From Pseudoalteromonas carrageenovora IAM 12662 (GTDB taxonomy: Bacteria; Pseudomonadota; Gammaproteobacteria; Enterobacterales; Alteromonadaceae), in contig NZ_LT965929.1 in assembly GCF_900239935.1 (NCBI RefSeq), positions 62,001 through 126,000 of the forward strand: a stretch of DNA of 64,000 bases, written 5' to 3'. The position numbers and the translations under genes were made by a program. The notes under the pieces are model-generated. The model did no database searches, had not been told where the DNA came from, and saw only the letters and a list, made by a program, of their open reading frames with translations. This document shows positions 37,768 to 56,872 of this stretch, piece after piece. Every line of letters begins with the position of its first letter. Within the stretch, counting starts at the first letter, position 1.

Positions 37768-38115
37768 TTAAAAAACTAAATCCTCAATACTTTTAGCATT
37801 CCTAAAGCTTTTAGAGCCTTGCATGACATGATATGCCCATGCTTTTGTATTTTCTTGACTAGTGTGTTCTGGGTATAGCATTTGTAAAGTCATTTCAGTA
37901 GCTAATGTAGTGTCGCCCAACCAAGTAACTTTATCTAAAGAAAGAGTACCATCTAGATCTATTGGCTCATTGTTATAGCGGTTTCCACTTTCAACGGATA
38001 TAAAAAACGCCATTCTAGCTAGTATATTAGGTGTTACTTTTGTTCTGCCCTTCATACGCCTTAAAAATTCATCTGTCTCTTTGGTTAGCTTCATGCCTCT
38101 GTTAGGTAAAATCAT
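37768..38115 (-). CDS. dndE: DndE, DNA phosphorothioation protein
   Basis: 115 aa from the ATG at 38115 (MILPNRGMKLTKETDEF). That start overlaps the dndD stop by 4 bases (ATGA), and the coupling decides the start over one at 38142. The family phrase RGMKLTKETDEFLRRMKGRTKVTPNILARMAFFISVE is split over residues 6-43, and basic residues fit the proposed DNA-binding role. It is needed for swapping a non-bridging oxygen for sulfur in the DNA backbone. Last gene of the leftward dndBCDE operon. Confidence 0.93.
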   Translation of the reverse strand: MILPNRGMKLTKETDEFLRRMKGRTKVTPNILARMAFFISVESGNRYNNEPIDLDGTLSLDKVTWLGDTTLATEMTLQMLYPEHTSQENTKAWAYHVMQGSKSFRNAKSIEDLVF

Positions 38116-40067
38116 ATTGCGCTCACCTCTTCTTTTTCCCAAAAATATCCCGCTGAAACAGAAGATGTTTTTGTAACTTGATCAAAACTAATGTCATATT
38201 TACAAGAAATAGAATCTTTCATTTGCCCAATATATTGCTCATTTACTTCAGTATCAGTGGATAAAATAATGACCTGTTCAGAAGCATTCGGAAAATAATG
38301 TTGAACAAGCTTATCTCTATGATTTGAATCGAGCCTGCCTAAAGGTGTATCTATAACTACAGGTAATTTTTTACCAGAAACACTAGCAAGTGCATCCAAC
38401 ATAGCAATAGCAAAAATTTGCTTTTCACCTGCAGAAAGTCCATTTTTATCGATGTTATTGCCGAAGTCATCTACCAAAACGACATTATAGCTATGAGGGT
38501 CAATACTAATATTTAGTTTAACATCTTCTTTTCTATTAAGTTTTTTATAAGATTCTATAAACTTAGTTTCAATCTCTGTCAGTTTTAATTTAACCAGTTC
38601 ATTCGAAAACTCATCAAGTAAAGTAATAGTTCTACTTGCTCTTATAGCAGAATCTTCTTCGCCAAACGCTGTTTTCATTTCTTTTTGAAGCTTAACTAAT
38701 TTGCTTGTTAAATCTTGAGCACTTTTAAACAGAGTTTTTGCGTCAAATAAAATCGCCTTATACTCTTTAACAAAAGTACTTTTCTCTTTCTCTAAAAGCC
38801 TTAATTTGTCAAAAGAAACCTGCAATTGTTCCTGCTCAGGAGCTCTTGATACATTTATTGAAGCATTTTCAATTGTGCTTTGTAGCTTTACTAACTCTAG
38901 TTTTAACTCTTTAGCATTTTGTGAAGAAATAAGTGCTTGCTGATTTACTTGTGCATGGAGTAATGCGCTTTGTTGTTCACTTAAATCAAAACTTATTAAG
39001 TTAGCCCCAGGTTGACTGTAGTCATCGGCGGCCTCTAATAATTGAGCTCTTAAAGCAAAAAAATCTTTTGAGCTATATTGATCTAAAAAGCCATTAAGCT
39101 GATTTTTAAAAGCTACTTTTTTGGCCGAGTCTTGTGTCTTTGTTATTTCGGTAAGCAAAGTAGTTAGGGTTTTTTGTGCTAAGCTCAAAGCATAATCGCC
39201 TTCAAGTTCATGCTGTAAGCGACTTTCAAGTACTGCTTTATTTTGAATATTAAGATCTATTGATTGCTGAGTATCTTCACGGCTTGCTGCCCAAGCTCCT
39301 CCTCCAGATAATAACTCTTGCTCTGCTAAAGTTATTTTACTGTTAAGCTCTGTAATGCTGTTAAATATTAAGTCAGCTTCATTACGCTTTAGAAGAGCTT
39401 GTGATAGTAATTCATCTTTCTCAGCTTCTAATTCATGATATTGCTCTTTTAATTTTTCTTCACTTGCTGCTATACCAGCTTTGCGCAGATAAATTCTTAA
39501 ATCTTCTTTTAAACGAGTAACTATATCTAAGCCAAGTAAACGTTTTACTGCATGCTGTAAAATTATGCCTGAGTTATCTTCAGCAAGCTCAGCTATTTTC
39601 TCACCATCGAAAAAGACTAAATCAGCTATTCCCGCAGGGATCAACTCTATTAAGAATGCTTGAGCTTGCTCATAGTTAAGCTCAAACTTTTCTACACCAT
39701 CTTCTACAATAACAAGTTCGTCAATTTTACCGTATTGCCACTGACGTTTTACGCAATAACTATAGCAAACACCTTGCCTTACATAATCAAACTCAAGCTC
39801 TAAATATGCTCTTTTATTATCAGTTTTACCGTCACTGTTATTAATAAGTTTTTGTAATTCTCCAATAAATGCAGGATTTGAAAGATTGCCTGAAAAAGCT
39901 TGTCTCCCTAGTAGGGCGAATCTTATTGCAGTCAAAATACTTGTCTTACCTGCGCCGTTTAAGCCGCCGAACAGAATAATGGGTTTATGTTTTTGAGGTT
40001 TTAAATCAATTTCATGTCTACCCGCAAACACTCTAAAGTTATTTAAACGTAGCTTATTAATAATCAT
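38112..40067 (-). CDS. dndD: DndD, SMC-like ATPase of DNA phosphorothioation
   Basis: 651 aa. Walker A is LFGGLNGAGKTS near residue 32. A long coiled coil spans about 190-520, the ABC signature is LSAGEKQ near 553, and Walker B with the D-loop reads PVVIDTPLGRLD near 580. This is the SMC/Rad50 layout expected of DndD, which is thought to open or nick DNA for sulfur insertion. It follows dndC with a 2-base gap and overlaps dndE by 4 bases. Confidence 0.95.
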   Translation of the reverse strand: MIINKLRLNNFRVFAGRHEIDLKPQKHKPIILFGGLNGAGKTSILTAIRFALLGRQAFSGNLSNPAFIGELQKLINNSDGKTDNKRAYLELEFDYVRQGVCYSYCVKRQWQYGKIDELVIVEDGVEKFELNYEQAQAFLIELIPAGIADLVFFDGEKIAELAEDNSGIILQHAVKRLLGLDIVTRLKEDLRIYLRKAGIAASEEKLKEQYHELEAEKDELLSQALLKRNEADLIFNSITELNSKITLAEQELLSGGGAWAASREDTQQSIDLNIQNKAVLESRLQHELEGDYALSLAQKTLTTLLTEITKTQDSAKKVAFKNQLNGFLDQYSSKDFFALRAQLLEAADDYSQPGANLISFDLSEQQSALLHAQVNQQALISSQNAKELKLELVKLQSTIENASINVSRAPEQEQLQVSFDKLRLLEKEKSTFVKEYKAILFDAKTLFKSAQDLTSKLVKLQKEMKTAFGEEDSAIRASRTITLLDEFSNELVKLKLTEIETKFIESYKKLNRKEDVKLNISIDPHSYNVVLVDDFGNNIDKNGLSAGEKQIFAIAMLDALASVSGKKLPVVIDTPLGRLDSNHRDKLVQHYFPNASEQVIILSTDTEVNEQYIGQMKDSISCKYDISFDQVTKTSSVSAGYFWEKEEVSAI

Positions 40068-40069
40068 TT

Positions 40070-41653
40070 TTATAAATCACTGTTTATTAGCGAGTCAATT
40101 CCGTCTAACTCAGCTTGAATTTCATTTATATCTTGTAGTAACGAATACTGTAAAACTTTCTCTGATTCACGCTTTTGCTTTGCAGCATCCACATTGCCCC
40201 AGTCTTGGCGTAATACTTTATCTAAACGATTAAAAATACCTTGGCGCTTGCCTAAACCAGATACACTCAGCTCTAAATCAATTAGCTTTTTCACTAGCTC
40301 GGCATCCACCTGATGAACGTGAGCCATATGATCAATCATTTCAGATTCAACATTAGTAAACGTATTTCCATCATCTTCTAAAAACTCAACAGGCCCATTG
40401 GGATATACACGTTTATAAATTTTAGGTAAGTCGTCGGCCCAGTCGGGTGTTAGCGGATCATTTCGCCATTGGTGACGTATTTCATGGAGTTCGGCTTCTG
40501 TAATTAATGAAACTTCACGGCCTTGCTCATTAATTTCTTTTTCCATGGTTAGTAGGTGCTCTAACCACTCTTTACGTAGGTGTAAAAAGTAAGGCCCATG
40601 AATAAACTCGATGTCTTTTTCTTCTTGCATACCGTGTTTAACGCTCACTTTACCGTCGCGTCTTCTGTTTTGGCGGTACAATCCTTTTACACTGGGCTCA
40701 GTCGTTGAGTGCAAAAAGTTTCTAAAAGAGGCTAAAGGTTGTAACCAAGCTTCACCGTTCGCTATAAGTCCATCAATTGCTTTATCCTTAGTAACAACAG
40801 TGCAGCTCCAGCAACCAAAACGAGATTTACCACACCCAGGTGAAGAGGCTGTTTCAACCAATGGGCACTCACCACTAGTTGAGTTTGTACTATCATAAAG
40901 CTCCACTAAAGCGATATTTGAAGTACCCCAAGGTGTTTCCCAAGGGCCTAGTTCTTCATATTGCCCTGGCGCAATTTGTTGTCCTAACAGATGCCAAACC
41001 TCTTGTACTTGCCAATCTTTTATTGGCGCGTATCGGCGATAGTGAGGGTCTGTTTCATCAAAATACTCTTTGCCTGAATGGTACTTTTCTAATATATCTT
41101 CACGGTTTTTACTTTCTTGAGAGCGAGAACCGATAACGACTATAGGGGCTTGTTCAGCGCTAAACTCAGTTTTAGCAAAGTCTTTAAAAGGGTTTAGTTT
41201 TATTTTTTCAGTACACCAACGGTTTAGCTTTAAATTAGGTGCAGGGTAACCACGCCCAAGTAAACGAGACCAAAATGTATCACTCGCTTTAGGTGTAATA
41301 ATACGAGTTTCTATTGGCAAGTCAGTGATGCTAGCTGCCCGCTGCAATGTATTTAAAGCATGCAGTGCTTTTTGTAAGTAAATAGGCACTTCAGCTAAGG
41401 TATCGCAAAATACAACGTAAACTTTATTAGTACGTTGTTCAGGGCTTAAACCAAGTAGAGCTAAATACACAAGCGTTAATATAGCGGTTGAATCCTTACC
41501 GCCACTAAAAGCTACAACCCAAGGTTGGTTTTCACGCATGTATAAATACTGAATCTCTGCAAGTTGCTCCTTTAAAGGGCGATCGGCAAAGGTTTGGTCT
41601 TCGATAAAATCCATGTAGTCATGGATATCGTCATAATTTTGAAATTCAAACAT
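40070..41653 (-). CDS. dndC: DndC, ATP-pyrophosphatase / sulfurtransferase of DNA phosphorothioation
   Basis: 527 aa, PAPS-reductase-like. The PP-loop is VVAFSGGKDSTAIL near residue 46. Four cysteines for an iron-sulfur cluster lie in SGECPLVET and PGCGKSRFGCWSCTVV near residues 265-290. It activates and passes sulfur to DNA, using a cysteine desulfurase. No dndA desulfurase gene is in the window, so a chromosomal IscS-type enzyme probably supplies sulfur, as in other DndA-less clusters. The N-terminus overlaps the end of dndB by 8 bases. Confidence 0.95.
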   Translation of the reverse strand: MFEFQNYDDIHDYMDFIEDQTFADRPLKEQLAEIQYLYMRENQPWVVAFSGGKDSTAILTLVYLALLGLSPEQRTNKVYVVFCDTLAEVPIYLQKALHALNTLQRAASITDLPIETRIITPKASDTFWSRLLGRGYPAPNLKLNRWCTEKIKLNPFKDFAKTEFSAEQAPIVVIGSRSQESKNREDILEKYHSGKEYFDETDPHYRRYAPIKDWQVQEVWHLLGQQIAPGQYEELGPWETPWGTSNIALVELYDSTNSTSGECPLVETASSPGCGKSRFGCWSCTVVTKDKAIDGLIANGEAWLQPLASFRNFLHSTTEPSVKGLYRQNRRRDGKVSVKHGMQEEKDIEFIHGPYFLHLRKEWLEHLLTMEKEINEQGREVSLITEAELHEIRHQWRNDPLTPDWADDLPKIYKRVYPNGPVEFLEDDGNTFTNVESEMIDHMAHVHQVDAELVKKLIDLELSVSGLGKRQGIFNRLDKVLRQDWGNVDAAKQKRESEKVLQYSLLQDINEIQAELDGIDSLINSDL

Positions 41654-42731
41654 GATTACTACTAAACTCTTCTTCTAGTTTTTTATCATCGCCTTCAAGT
41701 TGTAAATCAAGAGCCTGCCTTAAAATATTAGCAGTGAGTTTAATATTACTAGAAGCTTTGGACAATTTTCCGTGGTGCAATGCTCTATTGTCCCATATAG
41801 GGTTGCTCTTTCGCCAATCTATTTTGCTTAACTTTTGCAGAACGTGCTGCCAATCTTTAGGATGCTGAGCAATTAACGACTTACCCATACGCCCTAACGC
41901 ATGCAAACCAATGCCATGAGCATGAATATACTCTTGCCTAAAATTAGCAGGAGAGAGCTCTTTATTATGTACTTGTTGCCATTCAGTTATAACGCCAAAA
42001 CACGCTTGCCAAAAACTAACGGCAATTTGTAAATCACCATCTTCAAAATGTGACTTTGCATTTTTACTGAGGAGTATTTGGCTTGCTTGTTTAATACTAC
42101 TTAAAGTGAATAACTTGGCACTTTTGGGCGAAACAGTCGATTGTTCCATTTCAGTAAAACCCACAAAAGGCTTTATCTCTGTTGCTAGGTAACGTGCAAC
42201 ACCTGCAGACGAATCCCTAAAATCATATAACGCACTAATTGAAGGGCTAGGCTTTACAGCATACTTATTTAAATCGGCAAACATTTGTTGGCTACGTTTT
42301 AGACCTTCATCAACAAAAAATAACACAGATATATTATCTTGACCTAGCTCAGGCATTTCTTTTAATGCTTCTTCAATGGCAGCGCGGCGATGTTGCCCAT
42401 CATTAATCAGTATTTCAGCGTCCATAGGAACTTGTAATACACCTAAGTCGTGAGCTCCTTCATGAGGTATAAACCGCACTTCAGTACCAACAGATGCGGT
42501 TAGCGATGAAAACACATATTCTTTTGGGTTATCAACTAAATAACGAACCATTTCAGGGAGGCGTGTCCGATTTAAGGTACGTTGTGCCCGCAATTCTGCA
42601 GGCACTTCCTCTTCATCAAATAAAAATATTTTAGGAATAATTCTAAGTGGGCAAGTAGCAATGTAAAAAGGGCGACCTGCTTGCTGCCCTCTTACTGCTG
42701 GAAATGAATAGCAATATTTGTTTTCAAACAT
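41646..42731 (-). CDS. dndB: DndB, regulator of the phosphorothioation operon
   Basis: 361 aa from the ATG at 42731 (MFENKYCYSFPAVRGQQAG), the usual N-terminus; a start at 42770 would add 13 residues. The hallmark DGQHRRAAIEEAL is near residue 121, and the DGQHR domain extends to about 250. DndB is known in other bacteria to bind DNA and repress the dnd promoter or tune modification frequency. Here two matching inverted repeats lie just upstream, which fits autoregulation. It is the first gene of the operon and divergent from the RADAR ATPase gene. Confidence 0.92.
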   Translation of the reverse strand: MFENKYCYSFPAVRGQQAGRPFYIATCPLRIIPKIFLFDEEEVPAELRAQRTLNRTRLPEMVRYLVDNPKEYVFSSLTASVGTEVRFIPHEGAHDLGVLQVPMDAEILINDGQHRRAAIEEALKEMPELGQDNISVLFFVDEGLKRSQQMFADLNKYAVKPSPSISALYDFRDSSAGVARYLATEIKPFVGFTEMEQSTVSPKSAKLFTLSSIKQASQILLSKNAKSHFEDGDLQIAVSFWQACFGVITEWQQVHNKELSPANFRQEYIHAHGIGLHALGRMGKSLIAQHPKDWQHVLQKLSKIDWRKSNPIWDNRALHHGKLSKASSNIKLTANILRQALDLQLEGDDKKLEEEFSSNHV

Positions 42732-42743
42732 AATTAAATTTAG

Positions 42744-42761
42744 TTTGTTATTTTTAGCAAA
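42744..42761. promoter_or_regulatory. Operator-like inverted repeat near dndB start
   Basis: TTTGTTA-TTTT-TAGCAAA, one mismatch, 13 bases upstream of dndB. Its centre is 53 bases (five helical turns) from the centre of a perfect version at 42797-42814. Confidence 0.5.
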
Positions 42762-42796
42762 GCTTAACATTTTAAATGGTAATTTATAATCATTTA

Positions 42797-42814
42797 TTTG
42801 TTAAAAATAACAAA
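42797..42814. promoter_or_regulatory. Perfect inverted repeat between dndB and the RADAR operon
   Basis: TTTGTTA-AAAA-TAACAAA; arms extend by one more base on each side (42796-42815). It is placed in the 186-base divergent promoter region. Confidence 0.55.
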
Positions 42815-42917
42815 TTTTTTATCCATTCAGTTTGCATTAACTTTTTATTTTAGTTTTTGTTCCTTTTTCGGCTTTGAATTATTTATAGTTATGATTTAAT
42901 GAGGAAAAATATAGAAG

Positions 42918-45900
42918 ATGGATTCTCATATGAGCTCTCAAAAAAATATTATTCTAAATTTAGAAATGGCAACGGATGTTGTTAATTTGAAGTATAACGA
43001 AGTATTTCAGGTGGAAGCTCGGAAAACTATTTTTGATAAAATAAAACTTCAGCTTCGCAACATTAATAAAAAAGAGCCTAATTATGATGACCTCTTTTAT
43101 GAGCGGTTTCATAATGCGATTACTGTAAGCGGCCCTCGTGGGAGCGGGAAATCAACATTTTTACGGCATGTATTGACTTGTCTTCATTCACCTGGAAAAG
43201 TCGCAAATGAATCACAAGTGGCTGAAATACCAGAGGGTTTATCTGTATTAAGAGTAATAGATCCTACTTTAATATCTTCTAAAGAGCATGTATTAATTAT
43301 TTTAATTTCACAAATTCGTGATGCTATTTCAAAAACAAAAGCCTCTATTCATGATGATAAATATAAAATCTATGAAGAAGCATTGAAAGACTTAGCTGGT
43401 GGGTTATGTCAAATTGATGGAATAGGTTCTTCAAATTATGGTGATGAATGGGAAGATCAAACTTATATTTTAGAAAAAGGGCTTCAAAAAGCAGCTGAGG
43501 GGCGTAACTTAGAGCGGAACTTGAATAAGTTTTTAGATGCAGCTTTAAAAGCCTTAGGAAAAGATGCTTTTGTAGTTACATTTGATGACATCGATACAAA
43601 ATTTGAAAAAGGTTGGCCTGTCCTTGAAACAGTACGTAAATATTTGACTAGTCCGAGATGGGTCATATTAATTTCAGGTGATATTGAATTATATTCTAGA
43701 TTGATAAGGTCAGCTCAATATAAGTCTTTAGGTAAAGAAGTGATGAGTTATGAGAGGCCTTCTAGCCAGTTCCATGGTTCAGCGAACTTAACAAATTTCA
43801 GTCAAGATGCGTTATTAGACACGGTAACAGAATTACAAGAACAATATATGATGAAAGTACTCAAGCCTGAAAATCGGGTAAGTATGCTCACTTTACATCA
43901 AAAAGCTATGAGAACTTCGCTAGATAGTTATTCTACGAATATCAAAGTTAGAGATTTTTCTGGAAATAATAATGAAGATGCTTTAGATGAAGTTCTTGAT
44001 ACATTTCTCTCATATTGTTTAGGGCTAACTCAAGAGCATGAACAAAGAAATGCCTACACTGGTTTACTCAGTATGCAAACTCGTACATTTCTCCAGCTTT
44101 TGAAAGCTATTATGATTGATTTAGGTGTTAAAAACTATATTGAGGAGAATGATCTAAGGGGCTTAAAAATATCTCAATCAGGTCTAGATGAGTTTGCTAA
44201 TAGAGTTGTAGGGATTTTTAATTCATCATTTTCTAATTTTAAAATTCAGTTATCTCATCTGAACGTTGCTGAATACTCAATGGTAACTCTTGCTAGTTTA
44301 TTTTGGCTTTGGGCTGAAGAAGAAGGTTGCTGGGATCAGTTTGATAAGCTAAATACATCGTCAGATAATGAATCCTACAATGCAAGAGTGCTAACTTTTT
44401 TGGTTCTAATAAGTAAACATACAAAGTTTGATTTATCTCAAGCATTTAAATGGATGATATTTACTGCCTTTCCAAAATCGCTAGTTATAAAAATAAATAC
44501 TAATAAGAAACAAGAAGATAAAATTAGTGTTAAGGATATACTGAATTATTTGAGTATTAATGACTTACATAATGGACTTGTTGATAGTACGCAAAAGGCA
44601 TTAATTTCACTTTTAGCGACAGAAAAAAGTGAGCCAGAGACTGTTGGGTTATTTTCAGTACCAAAAAATAATGAAATAAGCTTGCTTTTTGAAGTAAATT
44701 TAGAGCGCTTCTATGAATTGTCAGGTTCATTTAGTTATAAAGAAAAAATAAAAAAGGCTAAGAGTGCAGAGCAGAAAAGGCAATTACGTAAAGAGCTAAA
44801 AGTTTCATTTCACAAAACTATATATCAATTGGGTAGATCAGATACAGACTTTCAAAGTTTTGGCATTCTTGCAGAGTGGTTAAAAGAAATAAGTAGATTA
44901 TATGTTGCTCTGGAGAATAAAAATAAGTTTAAGAACGACAGAACGGTTGGGTTTATATATAACACGCTACAGTCAATAGAAACAATTTATGATTTAGGTT
45001 ACTTTATCAATTTCGCGAAAATTTCAGTTAAAGATTATAAGAAAAGCTCGGAAACAAACTTTCTTTCTGGCGTATCTGTATTGTCTTGTATCTTTGAATT
45101 ATATGAGAAAAGAAATCTTAATATAGTTGAGCTTAAGAAAAATTTAGTAAATGTTATTCCTCAAAATGTACACCTTATGCCTAAGTGGTATCCAGCAAGT
45201 TCATCACCAGGAAGAGAAGATGATGTTGATAGTGATGAAGTTAGTGAATTATCTGATGTGGCTAAAGAATATTCAGGAGAATTTTATAATAACTTACTAA
45301 AATGGCTCTTAGCTGTTAAAAATTATTGGCCAGATAATTTTTTATCAAGTGCATCACTTAACAACCTCTTTAATCATTTTATTGAGAATATCAATGAGAA
45401 ACATGAACCTTCAATTGGTTGCCAGCTTCACTCTCAAATTGTTTTATTTCTTCATTATTGTTTAATTGAAGATGCAAACCGAAACAACGTCCCTAAGCTA
45501 AGCAGCAAAGCTTTAGAAAAGACGGAAAAAGAACTCCATTCAAATATTAAGAAGTATTTAAAAGAAAGTACTTTTTTGAAAAAAATTGAATCAGATAGCA
45601 CGGAAAAATCAATTTATAATTCACACCAGAATATGCTGATAAATCCAAAGAAATCAATTTTTGGTTTGTTATTAGCTTGTCCAATTATAGGTTTGTTTTT
45701 AAGAAAAGAACCAATAGAAAGAAGTTCATCAGGGAAGTGGGATTGGCACCAAGCTCACGCTAGTTGCTTTATATCTTTGACTGATAGTAAGTTTGATATT
45801 CTTAGTGATATAGAAGAAAACTGTAAAAATGATAAGTATATTAATGGCTTGAAGCCTTCCAGCTATGAGGAGACAATATCTGTAAATTATCGTTTATTTA

Positions 45901-46331
45901 TTGTGGCAAAAGATGAATACCTTGAATCATTAAGAGTAACGGGCACAATTGATGAAGAAAATTTATCATTTAATAACTTATGGCCAATTTTAAATACGAT
46001 CCCAATTACTACAGATTGGCAGAAGCTTAATATAAAACTAGATTTGTATGATGTTACAGAGCAAATTGAGATAGTTGACTCAGTTACAGCTGAAGAGAAA
46101 GTCATGGGCGAGGATGAAAGTGCTACCGATGTTGGAAGTACTACCGATGTTGAAAGTACTACCGATGTTGAAAGTACTACCGATGTTGAAAGTACTACCG
46201 ATGTTGAAAGTACTACCGAGGGTGAAAGTACTACCGATGATAGTTTGCAGCAAGATGAGCTAGATTTCTCAAAAATAGCATCTAAAGATAAAACTTTAGA
46301 TAAAACTTTAGATAAAAGTAAAATGAGTTAG
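42918..46331 (+). CDS. rdrA: RADAR-type P-loop ATPase (RdrA-like)
   Basis: 1137 aa. The P-loop TVSGPRGSGKSTFLRHV is near residues 75-90, and a Walker B-like VVTFDDIDTKF is near 218. The rest is a long helical region without recognised domains. It is assigned to RADAR because the next gene is a large divergent adenosine deaminase and the third is a SLATT-like membrane protein, the composition described for RADAR phage defence. In known systems RdrA assembles with RdrB and triggers nucleotide or RNA adenosine deamination on infection. The C-terminus holds seven 6-residue repeats (ESTTDV) that I do not know from RdrA elsewhere. A second possible start is at 42930. Confidence 0.82.
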   Translation: MDSHMSSQKNIILNLEMATDVVNLKYNEVFQVEARKTIFDKIKLQLRNINKKEPNYDDLFYERFHNAITVSGPRGSGKSTFLRHVLTCLHSPGKVANESQVAEIPEGLSVLRVIDPTLISSKEHVLIILISQIRDAISKTKASIHDDKYKIYEEALKDLAGGLCQIDGIGSSNYGDEWEDQTYILEKGLQKAAEGRNLERNLNKFLDAALKALGKDAFVVTFDDIDTKFEKGWPVLETVRKYLTSPRWVILISGDIELYSRLIRSAQYKSLGKEVMSYERPSSQFHGSANLTNFSQDALLDTVTELQEQYMMKVLKPENRVSMLTLHQKAMRTSLDSYSTNIKVRDFSGNNNEDALDEVLDTFLSYCLGLTQEHEQRNAYTGLLSMQTRTFLQLLKAIMIDLGVKNYIEENDLRGLKISQSGLDEFANRVVGIFNSSFSNFKIQLSHLNVAEYSMVTLASLFWLWAEEEGCWDQFDKLNTSSDNESYNARVLTFLVLISKHTKFDLSQAFKWMIFTAFPKSLVIKINTNKKQEDKISVKDILNYLSINDLHNGLVDSTQKALISLLATEKSEPETVGLFSVPKNNEISLLFEVNLERFYELSGSFSYKEKIKKAKSAEQKRQLRKELKVSFHKTIYQLGRSDTDFQSFGILAEWLKEISRLYVALENKNKFKNDRTVGFIYNTLQSIETIYDLGYFINFAKISVKDYKKSSETNFLSGVSVLSCIFELYEKRNLNIVELKKNLVNVIPQNVHLMPKWYPASSSPGREDDVDSDEVSELSDVAKEYSGEFYNNLLKWLLAVKNYWPDNFLSSASLNNLFNHFIENINEKHEPSIGCQLHSQIVLFLHYCLIEDANRNNVPKLSSKALEKTEKELHSNIKKYLKESTFLKKIESDSTEKSIYNSHQNMLINPKKSIFGLLLACPIIGLFLRKEPIERSSSGKWDWHQAHASCFISLTDSKFDILSDIEENCKNDKYINGLKPSSYEETISVNYRLFIVAKDEYLESLRVTGTIDEENLSFNNLWPILNTIPITTDWQKLNIKLDLYDVTEQIEIVDSVTAEEKVMGEDESATDVGSTTDVESTTDVESTTDVESTTDVESTTEGESTTDDSLQQDELDFSKIASKDKTLDKTLDKSKMS
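46116..46241 (+). repeat. Seven 18-bp tandem repeats inside the RADAR ATPase gene
   Basis: Unit GAAAGTACTACCGATGTT, in frame, encoding Glu-Ser-Thr-Thr-Asp-Val. The middle three units (46152-46205) are identical; the outer four differ by one to three bases. A further short repeat of Asp-Lys-Thr-Leu follows before the stop. Length change by whole units would keep the frame. Confidence 0.9.
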
Positions 46332-46336
46332 AGATC

Positions 46337-48916
46337 ATGCCCTCAATCTTAATTAGAGAGAGCTTCAGAAACACGGAGGCTCTTGGCAGCTATCAATCTA
46401 GCCATCGTTTGAATGAGCGCAGTTTAAAACAGTTTTTGTTTCAAGGGATAAGGAGGCGTAAAGCTGAATTGCCTGATCATGTAATTAAAAATAAATTAAG
46501 TAAATTTTTAGATTCAGATACAGGCTCCGTATTAAGCTTTTTAAATAAAATTCTCAGTACGCTCGGCGAGCGATATATTGAGCCAACATTTAATGGTCAA
46601 TTTTTAGTAGACTCTAAGTTGTTCGGTGAATGGCAGGAGTTAATAACCGAGGTTCCGCCATTATTTGGTATTTGTAGTGCTTTAAGAGATTTTTATACTT
46701 TCCCGAATCATAACAATAGAGCAGAAACAAAATTATATTTTGAGCGATTTCTAAGACCTCAAATTAGGTACAGTGCATTGCCAAGCATAAAAGATCCTAG
46801 GTTAGATGAACTTGTGGAGCGGTTAAAGCTTGATGATTTACATATTCACTTAAATGGTTCAAGCGAAATCGAAATTATTTGGCGTACTGCTCTACAAAAG
46901 CCCAGAGCATTCGCAAAAGAGTTAAAAGGTGCAAGTAATAATAAATTAGTTAAGGAATTGTATTCAGCAGAAGAAGTTGGTTTAACTCAAGAAAAACAAC
47001 TGGGTAAGTTAAATGTAGCAAAAGCATTGAGGGTTTTATTACTGAATGAAGTTTTTGGTCAAGATGCCAATATAGTTCAAAAAACCTTTTTTAAAAGAGA
47101 TGAAGACGAAACAAAACAAGCTTTTAAAATACAATTAATCAATATAGAGCAGGTTAATAAACTAACTGAATTAAGTAACTCATTCAACGTATCTGAGATT
47201 TATAATTTTGACTTTGATATTGAGGGCTCTCTTTTAGCTCAACTTAGTCATATTGAAGATGATATAAAAACCCCACTTGCTTTAGAGTCTTTCTATTTGA
47301 TTGCCATGTTTGGGTATTTAAAAAAGACCAAAAATGAAGCGTTTGGACATGCACTTTATTATTATTTACTTATAAAGTGCCAATTTAATAGATTGGTTGT
47401 GCAACAAACTCATCAGTTCGGTTTTGATCAATTTCAAAAGTTTACTGTTAATGAAATGCGCAGTACTACGGAGAAAGAGTATCAAACCAGATACCATCAA
47501 TTAAATTACTCTGATTTAGGTGACTTAGATTATTTAGAAGGTCGTTTTGCTCCTAGCAGAGACTTGCCTAGTAATGTGGATCGTTTAAGAACTATATTAG
47601 CAGATTACAAGCACTATCAAACCACAGAGCAGCGAGCCAACAATGCCATTATCGATAAAAATAAGAAAGTAAACCCATACAGTTTAAAAGATCTTCTGTG
47701 TCATAAAGCTAATGCTACTAGTTTGAAGCTGAGTTTAATCGCACACTTTATTAAGCGCCCTGACAAGCATATAAATAAATTAGTTAATGGTGAAATAAGG
47801 CTTTCTTGGCAGTGCAGGCATTATGAATTGCGCAATCAATTAGAAAAAACACGAAGAAGCTTAGCTGCATTACAAGAACAGTATATCGATTTAAGTGATT
47901 ATTTATTTGGATTTGATGCAGCTGCCAATGAATTAGATGCAGGACCAGAAGTATTTGCACCTATTTTTAAGCGGTTAAGAAAAGCTGGTTATCACAATTT
48001 TACTTATCATGCAGGCGAAGACTATGTGCATTTGCTATCAGGAATTAGAACTGTAGCTGAAGCTATCGATTTTTTAGATTTAAAAACAGGTAACAGAATT
48101 GGGCATGGCACAGCTATTGGTATACATCCAGAGCTATGGCGTGAACGTATTGGTAACAACATAGTAATGAAGCAAGGTGAGCGCTTAGATGACCTTGTTT
48201 TTGCTTATAAACATTTTTGTGATCATGAGGTCAATGGTACCCTTCTACATTTAATTGAACGCGAAATCAGAACACTTTCAGCACTTATTTATGAAGAGCA
48301 ATACTCACCAGTTGAGTTATATGATGCATGGGAGCTGAGATATATTGATCCAATCTTAGCCTTCGAATTAAAACGGCAGCATGGAAGCTATTTACGGTCA
48401 GAAATAAAAAAAGAAATAGATGATATTTTAAAGACTAAAAAAACTAATAAAAAAGCTTTTGAAATATTTGAAAAATATCATGGTGTAAATAACGCTGATT
48501 GCGCAATTCGCTACCAAGAGCTTATAGAAGTAGATATGACATGTCCGTGTGAGCGTGCTTTTAATTATGAAACTTTTCGCATATTGCAAAAATATGTAAT
48601 TGGTAAAATTAATCGTCGGCATATGGCTATTGAGAGTTTACCAACGAGTAATGTGAGAATTAGCTTTTATGAACATTACCGAGAACATCATATTTTTGAT
48701 TGGTTAGGAGTAACCGATGAAAAAGGTATGGAAGTACCAGTAGTATTGGGTTCTGATGATCCTGGTATTTTCGCCACAAACTTAAGAAACGAGTATGCTC
48801 ATATTTTACTCACTCTTGAAAATGATATTGGTCTTTCATCTATGGATGCAATTGCAAAACTAGAGCAAATAGTTCGTAACGGTAAAATTTGGCGTTTTAA
48901 GAAGTTAAGTTATTAA
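46337..48916 (+). CDS. rdrB: RADAR-type divergent adenosine deaminase (RdrB-like)
   Basis: 859 aa, about 2.5 times the size of housekeeping adenosine deaminase. Deaminase motifs are present in order: LDDLHIHLNGSSE near residue 170 (HxH zinc ligands), NFTYHAGEDYVH near 555 (third histidine and catalytic Glu), NRIGHGTAIGIHP near 590 and VVLGSDDPGIFATNLRNEY near 805 (the metal Asp pair). Large inserts separate the motifs, as in RdrB. Predicted to deaminate adenosine in nucleotides or RNA during phage infection. It follows rdrA by 5 bases and precedes the SLATT gene by 1 base, so the three form one operon. Confidence 0.88.
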   Translation: MPSILIRESFRNTEALGSYQSSHRLNERSLKQFLFQGIRRRKAELPDHVIKNKLSKFLDSDTGSVLSFLNKILSTLGERYIEPTFNGQFLVDSKLFGEWQELITEVPPLFGICSALRDFYTFPNHNNRAETKLYFERFLRPQIRYSALPSIKDPRLDELVERLKLDDLHIHLNGSSEIEIIWRTALQKPRAFAKELKGASNNKLVKELYSAEEVGLTQEKQLGKLNVAKALRVLLLNEVFGQDANIVQKTFFKRDEDETKQAFKIQLINIEQVNKLTELSNSFNVSEIYNFDFDIEGSLLAQLSHIEDDIKTPLALESFYLIAMFGYLKKTKNEAFGHALYYYLLIKCQFNRLVVQQTHQFGFDQFQKFTVNEMRSTTEKEYQTRYHQLNYSDLGDLDYLEGRFAPSRDLPSNVDRLRTILADYKHYQTTEQRANNAIIDKNKKVNPYSLKDLLCHKANATSLKLSLIAHFIKRPDKHINKLVNGEIRLSWQCRHYELRNQLEKTRRSLAALQEQYIDLSDYLFGFDAAANELDAGPEVFAPIFKRLRKAGYHNFTYHAGEDYVHLLSGIRTVAEAIDFLDLKTGNRIGHGTAIGIHPELWRERIGNNIVMKQGERLDDLVFAYKHFCDHEVNGTLLHLIEREIRTLSALIYEEQYSPVELYDAWELRYIDPILAFELKRQHGSYLRSEIKKEIDDILKTKKTNKKAFEIFEKYHGVNNADCAIRYQELIEVDMTCPCERAFNYETFRILQKYVIGKINRRHMAIESLPTSNVRISFYEHYREHHIFDWLGVTDEKGMEVPVVLGSDDPGIFATNLRNEYAHILLTLENDIGLSSMDAIAKLEQIVRNGKIWRFKKLSY

Positions 48917-48917
48917 A

Positions 48918-49607
48918 ATGAAAAAAGAAAAACCAAAAAAACTAAGCTCACCTCAATGGGCTGATTTTACTAAATACCAAACCTTTGAACGCCAATGTAG
49001 CAAATACTCTGACTATTTAAATAGTTACGTTAACTGGTTTGCTAAAAAAAGTAACGTTTGTCGTTTTGCAATGAAACAAGGGTTATTTTTAGCCATGTTC
49101 GCAGGCTCGTTATTTTGTATAAATAAATTTGAAGGCAGTTATGACGGTATTGAATTATGGCTTTTAGTATCGTTACCATGCTTAATTTTAACTATTAGTT
49201 TACTCCCTGACTTTGTTACAGATAGAGGCGTTATCAAGTCAAAATCTAACTGGTGTTTTATCACAATTTATTTTGTGCCAGCTTTATTAAAAGAACTGGA
49301 GTTAAATTGGGAAGCCTGTGTTATTCCTTTACTAGGTATTGGCTTAGGGATGACATTTATATTCTACTTAATAAATAGATTAGAGGGTTACACACGTGCG
49401 TGGTCGCGTTACAGGACAGCACAATATAAAGTATCTTTAATTAGCTGCCAAAAACAAACAGGATTACTCACTGAAAAACAAGCACTTTATCGTTTGCACC
49501 ACGTAATAAATAGTGAAGTTGAATCACGTCATAAAGAGATTATTAGCGACTTACATTTTTTTGGTGATAAAGTTAATGGCTTGATCGGTAAACAAGCAAG
49601 CTTGTAG
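48918..49607 (+). CDS. SLATT-like two-helix membrane protein, RADAR accessory
   Basis: 229 aa. A basic N-terminus is followed by hydrophobic segments near 53-70, 78-95, 107-122 and 132-150. The soluble C-terminal helix region begins GYTRAWSRYRTAQYKV. The overall pattern fits the SLATT family of membrane effectors, which accompany many nucleotide-based defence systems and some RADAR loci. The start is 1 base after the rdrB stop, so it is co-translated. Its likely job is to act at the membrane, for example by permeabilising it, or to tether the RADAR complex. Assignment rests on context as much as on sequence. Confidence 0.7.
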   Translation: MKKEKPKKLSSPQWADFTKYQTFERQCSKYSDYLNSYVNWFAKKSNVCRFAMKQGLFLAMFAGSLFCINKFEGSYDGIELWLLVSLPCLILTISLLPDFVTDRGVIKSKSNWCFITIYFVPALLKELELNWEACVIPLLGIGLGMTFIFYLINRLEGYTRAWSRYRTAQYKVSLISCQKQTGLLTEKQALYRLHHVINSEVESRHKEIISDLHFFGDKVNGLIGKQASL

Positions 49608-49623
49608 ATATTTAAGGATGAAT

Positions 49624-50412
49624 ATGTCAAAAATGACGATTGTTGAGGCGGCAAAGGAGGCTCTTTATTTATTAGGAGCAGCAAGTAGCCTAAAACAAAT
49701 TTATAGTAAGATTATGGAGCGTTCATTTTATAAGTTCGGTGCAAAAGATCCACTTGCTGTTTTGCGAGTTCAAATAGAAAGGCATTGTGAGCAAACATCG
49801 TGGTCTTGCGAAGCAAAAAATAAATTTTTTATAAAAGATGAAAAAGGTTTGTATTCGTTAGTTAGCTATAAACAGAAAATGCCTGTACCCGACCAAATAG
49901 CAGAAAGTGCTTTAGATAATTTGAGTTTAGTTAAAGAGCTCGCCAAAAAACTAAAACAGACAACAATTAACCATATTATTGATCATCTATATAGCTTAGA
50001 ACCTGAAGAATTTGAACTATTTTGCCAGCGGTTCTTAGATAGGTATGGATTCGAGGATATGATAGTTACTCAACGCGGCCGTGACGGCGGAATAGATGTT
50101 CACGGTTACTTAGAAGTGGGAATTTCACAATTGCATGTTGCAGCGCAATGTAAACGTTATAAGCGCACTAATAAAGTGTCGCGTCCTGATATTTCACAGT
50201 TTAGGGGGGACATTCAGGGCGAGTACCAGCAAGGTATTTTTATAACCACTAGTGAATTTACAAAAGAAGCTCAAGATATAGCCTTCAAAAGAGGTTGTGT
50301 ACCAATTGTTTTGATCGATGGACAAACACTTGCTGAGATAATGATTGACCGCGAAATTGGAGTAACAAGAAGTAATATTCCAATTTATGATTTTGAGATT
50401 GATTTAGTTTGA
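49624..50412 (+). CDS. Restriction endonuclease, HARE-HTH plus Mrr catalytic domain
   Basis: 262 aa from the ATG at 49624, chosen because AAGG sits 6 bases upstream (an ATG at 49618 overlaps it). The N-terminal 80 residues (MSKMTIVEAAKEALYLLGAASSL and onward) look like a HARE/HB1-type winged helix. Residues about 120-235 form a PD-(D/E)xK Mrr fold, with LEPEEFELFCQRFLDRYGF, RGRDGGIDVHGYL (catalytic Asp) and VAAQCKRYK (QxK). Mrr-type enzymes often cut modified DNA. Here the nuclease sits beside a modification operon lacking dndFGH, so it may either cut foreign modified DNA or replace the missing restriction unit. Confidence 0.85.
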   Translation: MSKMTIVEAAKEALYLLGAASSLKQIYSKIMERSFYKFGAKDPLAVLRVQIERHCEQTSWSCEAKNKFFIKDEKGLYSLVSYKQKMPVPDQIAESALDNLSLVKELAKKLKQTTINHIIDHLYSLEPEEFELFCQRFLDRYGFEDMIVTQRGRDGGIDVHGYLEVGISQLHVAAQCKRYKRTNKVSRPDISQFRGDIQGEYQQGIFITTSEFTKEAQDIAFKRGCVPIVLIDGQTLAEIMIDREIGVTRSNIPIYDFEIDLV

Positions 50413-50442
50413 ATTTGATACACGAAAACTCAAGGAATAAAT

Positions 50443-50760
50443 ATGTTTTTTAAGACAACGGTTTGGAGTTCGGGAAAGCCTAATAACATTACTGGTGCTG
50501 GTTTTGGCATAAGAATCCCAAAAGAAATTAAAGAAAATATTTTTAGTGAGCAATGGGGTCACGTATTAATCAAAACTAATAATCACTCCTTTAAAGTTGA
50601 TATTACACCAGGCTTTTGGAATAAATGTAATGAGCTGCGAAATCCACAAATAGGACTATGGTTAATTGAAAATAAATTAAACCATTGGAAAAGTGGTTTT
50701 CCTTCTGAGGTAGGGGTAGAGTACCTTGGCAGTCAAGACTTTAAGTTAACTACAATATAG
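50443..50760 (+). CDS. Hypothetical protein, 105 aa
   Basis: A small soluble protein starting MFFKTTVWSSGKPNNITGAG, with AAGGAA upstream. It has five Trp and a mixed alpha/beta look with a GFGIRIP stretch. I recognise no family. It follows the Mrr-type nuclease by 30 bases and ends one base from the convergent methyltransferase gene, so it belongs to the defence island. A role as partner or inhibitor of the nuclease is only a guess. Confidence 0.7.
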   Translation: MFFKTTVWSSGKPNNITGAGFGIRIPKEIKENIFSEQWGHVLIKTNNHSFKVDITPGFWNKCNELRNPQIGLWLIENKLNHWKSGFPSEVGVEYLGSQDFKLTTI

Positions 50761-50761
50761 T

Positions 50762-52834
50762 CTAGGAATTAGGTTTTTTAGTACCAAAAAACCTATCCCC
50801 ATTTAATTCCACACCCCAATAGTCAAACACCTTAAGTAAAATAGGCCAGTTGGGCCACTCTGCTTTGGTTACTCCTTTGAGCATATCGGCTAATTTTTTA
50901 TCAAAGCGTTGTTGGCTTTTGTATTCACTACTGCTTTTTTGTAAATAATCTATTTTGTTATATAAGGGCTGATAGGGGTAAATATCGCCGTAATAAAAAT
51001 AGTCGATATCTTGCTCTAGCATTTTTACTTTTATTCGCTCAGTGAGTAGCGGCAGCTTTTTATTAAAGTCATCGTATTTTAAAAATGTTACTTTGCCCGA
51101 TCGCATATGTATTTTTACTAAATCTACGTCGTCAATATCGCCATACAATTGCACCGCACAGCCTATGTATACACGCAGTATTGCGGGGAGCTGGTTTAAG
51201 TAACGAGTGGGTAAAATATATGAGTGGTTGTCGTGTAACTCACCGAGCTGAATTTGATCAAAGGCTTGGTAACAGGAATTGCCAATATTAGCGGGGTCTG
51301 CAATCGAGAACAGTAGTTGCTTTGCTTGCTCTAATGCTTGGTTGTAATCGCTAAAATGTACTTTTAAATCTCGCGTCAGCCTTGCAGGCATATGGCTTTT
51401 AGCTTGACGTTTACCAAATAGGCTAAGTGCAAAATAAACCAGTAAATCATGTTTTCGTTTTTGTTTCGCTTGCTCAAACTCATTTTGCTCATAGTAATTT
51501 TGCAGCAAGCTAAATGCTTTGTTGTGGCTGGCAAAGTATTTACGCAATGTTGCGCTTTGTTCAAACTCATCGTTTGCAGGTAAACGGCCTAAGTGCAGGC
51601 AATGTTGCCAAAAATCATCAAGCAGAGTTTTGTGTTTTTCAAACAAGGTTTTTTGCTGGGCTTTGGGTAAAGCTTTTGGCTGCGGCTTTTGGGTTATATG
51701 TTGCCAATTATAATTTTGAAATTGTAGCTCTAAATGATGTGCCTCTTCTAATTGTGGGCATTTAAAAATAGCGATAATACCTTGCCCAAACGCCATTGTT
51801 TTAACGTTTAGGGCTTGCTCTATGTAAGCTCTTATTTGGGCTTGGCTATAGTATTTTTGAAAGGTGTTCCATTTAGTGATTACGCCGTCTTTATATTGTT
51901 TGAAGTGTTCTTGCTTAGTTTCGTTAGCAAGCATTACTGATACTAAAAGGAGTTTTTGTGTGTACTGATAGGCTGCTTTTAATGTGTCTTTTCGCTCTTG
52001 TTGATCTTCAATGACATTGAGTACAAAGCCCAAATTAACAATATCACTTTTTTGTTTATTGCCGTTTGGCCTGTGTACTGGGTCCCATGCGTTTATATTT
52101 AACCCGTGTGCTTCTAGTTCTGTTGCGTCATCGGCTAGGCCGCAGCCGTAATCGAGTATTGAATGATCACCATTTAAGTAACCATACTTTGCTAGTTTTT
52201 GAAAAGGCGCAGAGAGCCTATCACGATTTATAGCTGTTAAATGGCGCTTTATTGTTTGTGGTTCATTTTCAACTATAGGCTCTGGTAACTCGGCTACTTT
52301 GTGTAATCTGCCTTGTTCATCAAGTTTAAAGGCTTTGCGCTTTATTAAGTTTTCCCATTGCTGTTTAAAGCCAATACTCTTTGTGTTTTGGTACAGGCCT
52401 ATTCGTTCACCTTCGTCGGTAATATCTTTAAATGTTTGGTAGAGCGGGTAACTTGGAAGTACAAAGGTTTCTTTACGGTGCAAAATAGGCGGGTTATTTG
52501 AGTTACTGTAGTTTGTTGTTTTTATTGTTTGTTCGTCACCATCAATTGTATAGCTGGTGTGGAGTTCGGGGTATGCGTATTCATCAAAGTGAGGGTAGTT
52601 AAGTAACGTAAATTTTAGATCGCGTTTATAGAGTTTAATTAGGTTCCAAGGCTCATTTGTGTTTAGTTTGCTTACGGTGCTTTGAATAAAACTTAGTAAC
52701 TCAAGCGGTAACGCTTCCTCTAATGAGCTTTTGTGTAAATAAATAGCTGTTGGTAGTGATTTACCATGTTTGAGCTTTTTCACTAGATCACGGTATTGAG
52801 TGAAGTTTAGCGTTGAAGGTAAGTTAGCAGCCAT
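50762..52834 (-). CDS. DNA phosphorothioation-associated putative methyltransferase
   Basis: 690 aa. A class I SAM-binding core lies near 220-330: SILDYGCGLADDATELEAHG (motif I), then INAWDPVHRP and VNLGFVLNVIED. The N- and C-terminal parts are long and family-specific. I recognise the layout (TAINRDRLSAPFQKLAKYGY before the methyltransferase core) as the family annotated as phosphorothioation-associated methyltransferase, which travels with dnd clusters. The substrate is not established. It is transcribed alone on the minus strand, facing the defence operon, and its promoter lies against the repeat region at 52.86 kb. Confidence 0.85.
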   Translation of the reverse strand: MAANLPSTLNFTQYRDLVKKLKHGKSLPTAIYLHKSSLEEALPLELLSFIQSTVSKLNTNEPWNLIKLYKRDLKFTLLNYPHFDEYAYPELHTSYTIDGDEQTIKTTNYSNSNNPPILHRKETFVLPSYPLYQTFKDITDEGERIGLYQNTKSIGFKQQWENLIKRKAFKLDEQGRLHKVAELPEPIVENEPQTIKRHLTAINRDRLSAPFQKLAKYGYLNGDHSILDYGCGLADDATELEAHGLNINAWDPVHRPNGNKQKSDIVNLGFVLNVIEDQQERKDTLKAAYQYTQKLLLVSVMLANETKQEHFKQYKDGVITKWNTFQKYYSQAQIRAYIEQALNVKTMAFGQGIIAIFKCPQLEEAHHLELQFQNYNWQHITQKPQPKALPKAQQKTLFEKHKTLLDDFWQHCLHLGRLPANDEFEQSATLRKYFASHNKAFSLLQNYYEQNEFEQAKQKRKHDLLVYFALSLFGKRQAKSHMPARLTRDLKVHFSDYNQALEQAKQLLFSIADPANIGNSCYQAFDQIQLGELHDNHSYILPTRYLNQLPAILRVYIGCAVQLYGDIDDVDLVKIHMRSGKVTFLKYDDFNKKLPLLTERIKVKMLEQDIDYFYYGDIYPYQPLYNKIDYLQKSSSEYKSQQRFDKKLADMLKGVTKAEWPNWPILLKVFDYWGVELNGDRFFGTKKPNS

Positions 52835-52863
52835 TAAAATTACTCAAGCAGTTAAGATAGTTC

Positions 52864-53184
52864 AATATACATAACGGTAATATCAACAACAAATTTAAAG
52901 GCCGCTGTTAAGGCAATCCCCCCGTCATTTTGCCTGAAAGGACTCAATTGATGAGTAATTGATTGCATGGAAGCAAGTGAAGCCGTGACTTCGCCATGGA
53001 CGGTGAATACACGGCGGTTACGTTCATATCGATTTAGGCTTTGAGGAAATTGCAAAATGCTCGGGGCGCCGAAAGATTCCAAAGAGAAGTCGGCGGTTAC
53101 TTCTCTTTGGTTGCCATCGCCAACGCGATATTTGTAAATTATTTTAAAAGCTTCGCTTTTCGCGCGAGCAAGCTTCGCGCCTAC
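52864..53184. repeat. Composite structured repeat, copy 1 (321 bp)
   Basis: Nearly identical to 58813-59177 except for lacking most of one hairpin module of about 50 bases. Modules are a leader with AATATACATAACGGTAAT, a GCCGTGACTTCGCCATGGAC hairpin, a CCAAAGAGAAGT/ACTTCTCTTTGG hairpin (53079-53090 with 53099-53110), an ATCGC-CAAC-GCGAT hairpin, and a REP core AAAAGCTTCGCTTTTCGCGC ending GCGCCTAC. An open reading frame across it on the minus strand is an artefact. Confidence 0.82.
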
Positions 53185-53222
53185 GATACATTTTAAAGCT
53201 GCTGCTAAGGGCACTTCCTAAT

Positions 53223-53412
53223 GATTGCCATCGCCAATGCGATGTAGGTAAACACAATTTAAAAGCTTCGCTTTTCGCTCGAACAAGCTCAGCGCCTACG
53301 ATACATTTAAAGGCTGCTGTTAAGGGGCTTCTGACTGGTTGCCATCGCCAACGCGTTATTAGTTAATTATTTTAAAAGCTTCGCTTTTCGCGCGAGCAAG
53401 CTTAGCGCCTAC
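53223..53412. repeat. Two partial repeat units (ATCGC hairpin plus REP core)
   Basis: Units at 53223-53299 and 53337-53412 keep only the last two modules of the composite repeat (GATTGCCATCGCC... and AAAAGCTTCGCTTTTCGC...GCGCCTAC). Each is followed by a spacer resembling TACATTTAAAGGCTGCTGTT. Confidence 0.78.
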
Positions 53413-53479
53413 ATTAAATTTAAAGGCTGTAGCTCAAATATTTCCCTCTTCAATTTCACCTGAAAACACATAATTAATG

Positions 53480-55514: not shown

Positions 55515-56519
55515 TTAAAGCTTAATTGGCGTACTTATCTCACAATCTTTGCATACTAAAGAGTAACTTTCTCTACGCTTACTTGTTTTCGTATTACTAC
55601 TAGAGCAGTTAGGGCACGGCATTTTCATTGGTGTGTTTGCAGTGCAATTACCGCATTTTACAAAGTAGCCATAGCGCCCAGAAAGAGGTTGCAAATTGGT
55701 CGCGCTATTACATTGCTTACAAGCTAATGTTATCTCTTTGATTAGATCACTTTTAGGTTTTACTTGTTCAGTATTGGTTTGCTCAGACGCTATTAAAGCC
55801 TCATCGTAAACAGGTTCTGATTCGCTTATTTCTGCAGGTGCATATGAAGGCTCTTGTAAGTTAGGCGATATATTTTGATCTAAAATAAACTGACAAATCC
55901 TATCGAGTGTTTCTTCACTGAACCATGGCCGAACGTTTGTTGTAAAAAGGTGAAGTGCATTAGGTTTAGATGCTGGAAGCTTCATTATTTCGAGTAATTT
56001 ATCAGTTATAAATTCCGATTTAACCAGCCTCTCTTCAATTGTTTTTGGTGTGTTTTTTCGGTTGATAATGGCGTTACTCGATATGGCACAAATACTATGC
56101 CACTCTCTGCCACCAAAACCCTGTTGCAGTTTGCCAAATAATTTAGTGAGTAGGTTTGGTGCATTGTCGCGCATTAGGCTTTTTAATAGTTCTAGTTGTA
56201 ATTCAACCTGTTTTATTGGCGATGGCATACCTTGCCAGTTGCCGCGATAACTGCGACTCCATTCTTGATGCTCATTAATCGTTACTTCCCCTGTAATACT
56301 TTTAGATTCGATAAGAATAAAACCATAGGTGTACGCGATTAGGTGGTCTATTTGTGCGGTTTCGCCATTGTGTTTAAATTTTACATCGTTAAACACAAAT
56401 ACCTGACCATGATCTTTAAAGGCGCGACGTAAATAAAAGGCAACGTCAAGTTCTTGTTTTTGACCCGCTTTGATCTTAGCGTAATTGGAAGTTGATAGAG
56501 CTTTATCTTTTAAAATCAT
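55515..56519 (-). CDS. NERD-domain protein with C-terminal zinc ribbons
   Basis: 334 aa. The NERD nuclease-related domain covers about 18-130: GQKQELDVAFYLRRAF, AQIDHLIAYTYGFILIESKS (with the ID...ES-K catalytic-like pattern) and IKQVELQLELLKSLM. The C-terminus has two four-cysteine ribbons (CKQCNSATN, CGNC; CPNCSSS, CKDC). No ATPase or helicase domain is attached. NERD proteins are suspected DNA-processing or defence enzymes. It stands alone, flanked by repeats on its upstream side. Confidence 0.82.
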   Translation of the reverse strand: MILKDKALSTSNYAKIKAGQKQELDVAFYLRRAFKDHGQVFVFNDVKFKHNGETAQIDHLIAYTYGFILIESKSITGEVTINEHQEWSRSYRGNWQGMPSPIKQVELQLELLKSLMRDNAPNLLTKLFGKLQQGFGGREWHSICAISSNAIINRKNTPKTIEERLVKSEFITDKLLEIMKLPASKPNALHLFTTNVRPWFSEETLDRICQFILDQNISPNLQEPSYAPAEISESEPVYDEALIASEQTNTEQVKPKSDLIKEITLACKQCNSATNLQPLSGRYGYFVKCGNCTANTPMKMPCPNCSSSNTKTSKRRESYSLVCKDCEISTPIKL

Positions 56520-56585
56520 GCGACATCCTTTCTGTCATATATGTTTAAATCATATCACTGAAGTACCTAATAAAAATACTGTTGA

Positions 56586-56819: not shown

Positions 56820-56872
56820 GGTAAACTTGAATGCCGCTGCTCGAAGCTCATTACGTCTCTATTTAAATAATA

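Follow-up and report, generated by a model that had tools for sequence, protein, structure and literature searches.

In Pseudoalteromonas carrageenovora IAM 12662, the genes of a Dnd phosphorothioation system and those of a RADAR-type defence stand back to back, and we lean towards seeing in them a Dnd-RADAR cassette, i.e. divergent operons that have been inherited and moved together and probably constitute one layered defence. This assignment comes from comparative sequence analysis of a 64,000-nucleotide stretch, hereafter the window, which is part of contig C2 in a genome of 4.58 Mb in three contigs. Between positions 37768 and 52834, dndE, dndD, dndC and dndB run leftward, while rdrA, rdrB, the gene of a membrane protein, that of a HARE-HTH/Mrr nuclease and a 105-residue ORF run rightward, and a leftward gene coding for a Dnd-associated methyltransferase ends the block on the right. 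A sequence-only reading had already described most of this arrangement, and both the ORF positions and the family matches agree with it, for the leftward dndB-C-D-E run as well as for the P-loop ATPase, the 859-residue deaminase and the membrane protein facing away from it.

The Dnd half comprises a complete modification set, each of its members over the curated cut-off of its model. All four genes are on the minus strand: DndE (124 residues, 37768-38142; TIGR03184, 79.6 bits), DndD (651 residues, 38112-40067; TIGR03185, 447.7 bits), the PAPS-reductase-like sulfurtransferase DndC (527 residues, 40070-41653; TIGR03183, 407 bits) and DndB (41646-42770; TIGR03233, 470.6 bits), which has 374 residues from the first ATG or 361 from the second Met. 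The block contains no dndA gene. As for the absence of dndFGH claimed earlier, it holds for the 28 window ORFs that were scanned, smaller ORFs being left out (10 against Pfam, PADLOC and NCBIfam, 10 against Pfam only and 10 against PADLOC alone, 8 of these last being new). The DndH model finds no match in the whole genome, but it is equally silent in control genomes.

The nuclease (264 residues, 49618-50412, plus strand) is of the Mrr type as proposed, with an Mrr_cat match of 95 bits well over the cut-off in the Pfam search, and its HARE-HTH match (E 0.0025, 18.6 bits) lies under the cut-off of 25.9. Among the 39 other dnd loci, five, all without RADAR, have a copy 69-77% identical to it, and by this distribution it belongs to the Dnd side. 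The next ORF (105 residues, 50443-50760, plus strand) indeed looks like an orphan, as it has no relative among the loci compared and none in the family libraries, a weak DUF1905 match (E 0.03) aside. The methyltransferase (690 residues, 50762-52834, minus strand) had been called phosphorothioation-associated, and its TIGR04096 score of 592.8 bits bears this out. To its right lies a 115-bp tandem repeat of 2.8 copies (53111-53429), and genes of the NERD, HipA and Fic families are found further along the right flank (55515-61578).

The RADAR half is more divergent from its namesakes. The NCBIfam RdrA model matches only the N-terminal part of the AAA+ ATPase (1137 residues, 42918-46331, plus strand), with 136 bits against a cut-off of 600, and the RdrB model gives the adenosine deaminase (859 residues, 46337-48916, plus strand) 180 bits against 800. 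Both proteins thus fall short of the equivalog cut-offs, and the claim that they work like RADAR stands, but the equivalog label does not. Matches to solved E. coli proteins indicate that the naming is right at the family level: a profile of 46 RdrA rows, the window's included, matches RdrA 8hr7 with 577 bits over most of its length, and the window's RdrB matches RdrB 8fnw with 293 bits. Walker A and B motifs are present in RdrA, where G77, K78, D223 and D224 are invariant in the 46 rows, and rdrA lies directly upstream of rdrB with a gap of 5 bases. RdrB was said to have intact zinc motifs; its H169, H171, H558, H590 and E561 align with H152, H154, H498, H530 and E501 of the E. coli protein, named in PMC9994260, and these zinc and catalytic residues are invariant in 35 aligned rows. 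The source genome has a single RdrB copy. RdrA is long, with 1137 residues in the window and 1161 in the Shewanella locus described below, compared with 770-1059 in 84 others (from ORFs of more than 600 residues only). Near its C-terminus, an 18-bp tandem repeat of 6.9 copies (46115-46239, plus strand) encodes STTDVE units and is possibly length-variable.

The membrane protein (229 residues, 48918-49607, plus strand) had been described as SLATT-like. This family label is not confirmed at the sequence level, as the protein matches no Pfam family at E 0.01 and gives chance-level matches up to E 10; two of its homologues weakly match DUF4231 (E 0.04 and 0.12). Its place, however, is informative: of the 15 other RADAR loci from the genus, family and order, 7 have a homologue adjoining RdrA, versus none of 79 loci on genome contigs. 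Judged by this neighbourhood, it is a RADAR accessory and belongs to the RADAR side. According to a review (PMC11676413), a SLATT or Csx27 membrane protein accompanies some variants of RADAR. The window resembles RADAR of the E. coli/Citrobacter type in its AAA+ ATPase and large adenosine deaminase in one operon, its Walker motifs, its zinc and catalytic residues and its small membrane protein, and differs from it by a longer RdrA, by sub-equivalog scores for both proteins and by its divergent orientation relative to dndBCDE.

The same gene order and orientation are found in Shewanella pneumatophori (locus L021), which makes two loci with dnd and RADAR that could be read directly. Identities between the two are 71% for DndC, 67% for DndB, 59% for DndE and 48% for DndD on one side, and 50% for RdrB, 37% for RdrA and 37% for the membrane protein on the other; DndC of the window is only 32-46% identical to those of the 39 other dnd loci. 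In the nuclease position after the membrane protein, L021 has a lone HARE-HTH-like protein of 102 residues (28.8 bits, against 8.9 for the highest-scoring of 1000 shuffles) from which the nuclease domain is absent, near a replacement boundary. A decayed copy is present in another Shewanella genome, G679 (L257, 14968-16619), where a dndD without its N-terminal third lies beside a full-length dndE; they are 74% and 85% identical to those of L021 and represent the same Dnd lineage.

In both genera the block lies where relatives have another kind of dnd content. In Shewanella, the methyltransferase and right flank of L021 are 91-95% identical in DNA to those of three genomes, G721 (L262), G732 (L261) and G757 (L258), and the high-identity stretch starts at 13789 or 13804, 187-202 bases in from the 3' terminus of the methyltransferase gene. 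Protein identities of DndB to DndE with G732 and G757 are 41-64%, and RADAR is absent from all three loci. As the left-flank prpF gene (NCBIfam) of L021 has a 77% DNA match in G721, about 18 kb beyond dndE, L021 and G721 are probably one site holding two contents. The methyltransferase DNA of the window is 88.9% identical to that of G207 (over 50802-53184) and 86.2% to that of G098, both matches beginning 40 bases in from the 3' terminus of the gene; for the ABC-F gene on the left flank, identity with the G207 counterpart is 93.9%. DndC, in contrast, is 40% identical to that of G207 and 32% to that of G098, proteins of other dnd lineages. The order of the flanks differs, with an RF-1-type gene on the opposite side of the island in G207, and what G098 has in common with the window, within its fetched stretches, is limited to that gene and to parts of the right flank.

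It thus appears that, in each genus, dndEDCB and rdrAB replaced a different version of dnd, or the other way round. The block seems to travel as a unit, since dnd and RADAR are found together where relatives with a nearly identical methyltransferase have another dnd lineage; the methyltransferase goes with the site, as its fixed part, and not with the block that moves. The sequence-only reading had considered that an intact Dnd block without RADAR at this site in most strains would speak for simple co-location. To the letter, this is what both of the two genomes compared (G207 and G098) have, but their dnd genes are of another lineage, and the closest readable kin of the window's dnd genes is the RADAR-bearing L021.

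That two common defences met by chance in an island, as the HipA-, NERD- and Fic-family neighbours and the frequencies of both systems in the genus (DndB-family matches in 18 of 108 genomes, RdrB in 21 of 108) might suggest, seems to us highly improbable, given the same arrangement in Shewanella, the apparent block replacement in both genera and the lack of dnd genes in 94 other RdrB loci, many of them short. Counting dnd genes near rdrB homologues had been proposed at the outset; beyond L021 with its identical layout, this gave zero in these 94. They include 79 which, together with L021, make up the best 80 of 247 loci on genome contigs. Among these 80, dnd genes occur only in L021, and no Dnd, methyltransferase or Mrr genes were found in the other 79 stretches. 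At least 5 kb of flank is available on both sides in 47 of the 79 and on at least one side in 70, and short contigs weaken this zero. The remaining 15, fetched from the genus (9 loci), family and order, have no Dnd, methyltransferase or Mrr genes either. Conversely, the 39 other dnd loci lack RdrA and RdrB; they leave aside 6 of the 12 lesser DndB-family matches of the genus, order matches below 370 bits, three weak Shewanella dndD matches and the broken L257.

At the genome level, 17 of the 20 other RdrB genomes of the genus have no DndB-family match. In the three that do, the match is on a different contig (G228 and G263) or 574 kb away and weak (G287); in G263 both matches are near contig ends, and that of DndB is weak (60 bits). 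RdrB matches, short ones and ordinary deaminases included, are found in 17 of 196 genomes of the family and 16 of 394 of the order. In Shewanella, a strong match occurs in one of 129 genomes, L021's own, and 83 further genomes match, 79 of them only through brief segments of ordinary deaminases (E 1e-6 or weaker) and four through other RdrB-like proteins.

Protein clusters provide a wider view. Among the best 120 of 289 RdrB clusters, 16 are 46-95% identical to the window's protein and the rest 39% or less; among the best 120 of 4727 DndC clusters, 10 are at 60-96%, followed by values of 47% or less. Four of the 16 close RdrB clusters are on a contig of the same size as that of a DndD representative (23434, 359491, 671581 and 22419), one of them also matching a DndC and one being L021's own contig. 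These equal sizes suggest that the two lineages share a contig in a further three relatives. For the 359-kb contig of Shewanella 5S214 this means the same contig only, nearness being a separate matter. None of the 104 more distant RdrB clusters matches DndD or DndC in size, and a control with shifted values gives 0.43 matches per shift. This comparison is a weak control, as the lists hold the best 120 of 4727 DndC and of 2484 DndD clusters and dnd genes unlike the window's could not match; 119 of the 120 DndD values entered the comparison, and the remaining one, P0359 (218253), is equal to no RdrB value. An absent size match says little, since the same test between DndC and DndD, which are operon neighbours, gives only four matches. 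Fisher's test yields 1e-7 (5/5 versus 0/62) when related loci are treated as independent, and for this reason we give it no weight. A single coupling event may lie behind all the linked loci, in which case the counts are not independent.

Four RdrB loci on viral contigs, at 29% identity, are without dnd genes; plasmids yield seven RdrB records, at most 32% identical, and six partial DNA matches to dnd genes, and in 2283 plasmid records no DndC reaches 60% identity. A class-wide DndC search of 369 genomes adds one further locus, at 44%.

What lies between dndB and the methyltransferase varies. The latter is present in the stretch in 35 of the 39 other dnd loci, always on the dndB strand, and missing from 4. 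The slot is empty in 22 loci, holds an HNH protein in 6, and DndA alone or with more in 7. Five of these seven have the Mrr nuclease, and transcription of DndA and Mrr leads away from dndB, as does that of RdrA and the genes that follow it in the window. Because of this shared direction, the window looks like the DndA/Mrr arrangement with RdrA, RdrB and the membrane protein in the place of DndA. In L194, a 182-residue ORF for which no family was found (8376-8924) occupies the Mrr position next to DndA. Elsewhere, G222, a genome of the window's genus, has two dnd loci with identical DndD about 1.15 Mb apart on one contig (L192 and L193), and beside dndE of L192 is a 419-residue ion-channel-like protein (733-1992) whose match to Hailong HalA, at 40 of 250 bits, is below the cut-off.

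In the DndD tree, the window's protein belongs to a group that comprises 27 of the 63 rows (support 100/100) and includes the RADAR-linked DndDs of Shewanella, with RdrB-linked rows in both branches of this group (99/93 and 84/69). P0252, P0254 (Shewanella MMG014) and P0256 nest among the RdrB-linked DndDs and have no matching RdrB contig; the same is true of the sister branch P0257-P0263 with P0265, and of P0264 (P. spongiae). The window's Dnd lineage may therefore occur without RADAR.

These observations bear on the idea that RADAR landed once in a variable slot of an ancestral locus and has since been carried along by linkage, acting independently of phosphorothioation, which we regard as possible if somewhat doubtful. 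The variety of slot contents across the 39 loci and the close DndD relatives without a matching RdrB contig are in its favour, as is the protection of E. coli by RADAR expressed without Dnd genes (PMC9994260). A mere passenger, however, fits less well with a linkage kept in two genera even as identity dropped to 37% for RdrA and 50% for RdrB, with the pairing of RADAR with one Dnd lineage in both genera, or with the retention of a divergent gap with operator-like sites.

That gap suggests how the two operons might be tied. A shared promoter region of 186 bases had been proposed; this length is correct if DndB starts at the second Met (42731), and the longest ORF leaves 147 bases. Two copies of the palindromic pattern TTTGTTANNNNTARCAAA, 53 bases apart, lie at 42744-42761 and 42797-42814 and are candidate DndB operators. 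The pattern was built from the sites themselves, and the sole independent fact is that exact matches occur nowhere else in the 4.58-Mb genome. The Salmonella DndB protein binds TACGN10CGTA and represses its own operon (PMC4507180). This box is absent from the dndB-rdrA gap of the window but present between dndB and rdrA in L021 (6271-6288), and, counting L021, 5 of 40 loci have it upstream of dndB (4 of the 39 others), with 10 occurrences in all in their 788 kb. Of 41 loci, 26 have a palindrome with arms of at least 7 bases upstream of dndB, compared with a mean of 6.4 and a maximum of 16 in mononucleotide shuffles; L021 has no palindrome with 7-base arms there. Promoter-like and terminator-like sites are no commoner than in shuffles and have no part in the argument. 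In L188 and L213, palindromes with 19-base arms containing TACGTA lie just upstream of dndB. Together, the paired palindromes of the window and the published type of DndB box in L021, both between dndB and rdrA, suggest that the dnd and RADAR operons are under shared control.

It is quite possible, though short of probable, that the coupling is regulatory only, DndB repressing both promoters without any sensing of phosphorothioates; this would be compatible with a cassette as well as with a passenger RADAR. In its favour are the self-repression described for Salmonella, the boxes upstream of dndB in L021 and the four other loci, and the paired palindromes of the window. Nevertheless, the boxes of the window and L021 are unlike each other, the operators are putative, and an intergenic site may act on the dndB side only.

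As to the preferred reading, a layered Dnd-RADAR cassette, part of its background is established. DndCDE places phosphorothioates and DndB regulates, and RADAR turns ATP and dATP into inosine forms after infection, as reported for the E. coli system; each of the two is reported to work without the other. We envisage that DndBCDE would put phosphorothioate marks on self DNA, with sulphur presumably supplied by a housekeeping cysteine desulfurase such as IscS, as the block has no dndA. The HARE-HTH nuclease, from its domain and context, would read the modification status and cut foreign DNA. RdrA and RdrB with their membrane partner would form a second line, converting ATP and dATP to inosine nucleotides when infection breaks through, and DndB would probably control both operons via the palindromes of the shared gap.

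The earlier proposal of one unit therefore fares well for inheritance and transfer, considering the layout common to two genera, the apparent block replacement and the shared gap with operator-like sites. That Dnd and RADAR are in addition functionally coupled strikes us as somewhat probable. RADAR or the Mrr-type protein as putative response arm and the sulphur mark as putative self-label is a plausible distribution of roles. A tighter mechanism, in which RADAR replaces DndFGH and is restrained by DndB or the phosphorothioate state until unmarked DNA or relief from DndB frees ATP-to-ITP conversion, we consider unlikely.

Compared with DndABCDE plus DndFGH, the locus has the DndBCDE modification genes, each over its cut-off, and its scanned ORFs include neither dndA nor DndFGH; RADAR and the HARE nuclease are there instead. 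The link of HARE nucleases to Dnd has been published (PMC10853773), and as in those loci a probable HARE-HTH and restriction endonuclease protein adjoins the modification genes; unlike the window with its RdrA, RdrB and membrane protein, the loci of this type that we compared have DndA at that place. The words 'deaminase' and 'radar' are absent from the main text of that article. In the IscS-DndBCDE-DndI system (PMC11662687), DndBCDE likewise works with an effector other than DndFGH and with IscS for DndA, but the effector is the nickase DndI, and RADAR figures in that article only in the reference list. RADAR and Dnd are named apart in the reviews PMC12948488 and PMC11676413, the latter searched for RADAR alone. 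Among the papers found by searching the open-access literature, which leaves most subscription papers and all of bioRxiv outside, none treats RADAR and Dnd as a unit in its title or the start of its abstract. Both halves are known, and their conserved pairing is, as far as we can tell, a novel variant.

For Dnd loci, a backup role of suicide effectors has been proposed by Rakesh et al. (2024; PMC10853773). By analogy, RADAR would fit as such a backup, its target being nucleotides rather than nucleic acids. With the two systems back to back in a conserved locus around one control region, the trigger of RADAR and the restriction arm of the many Dnd systems that lack DndFGH become testable in one construct. 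If the coupling is true, it would also show that epigenetic self-marking can recruit a suicide module that otherwise stands alone.
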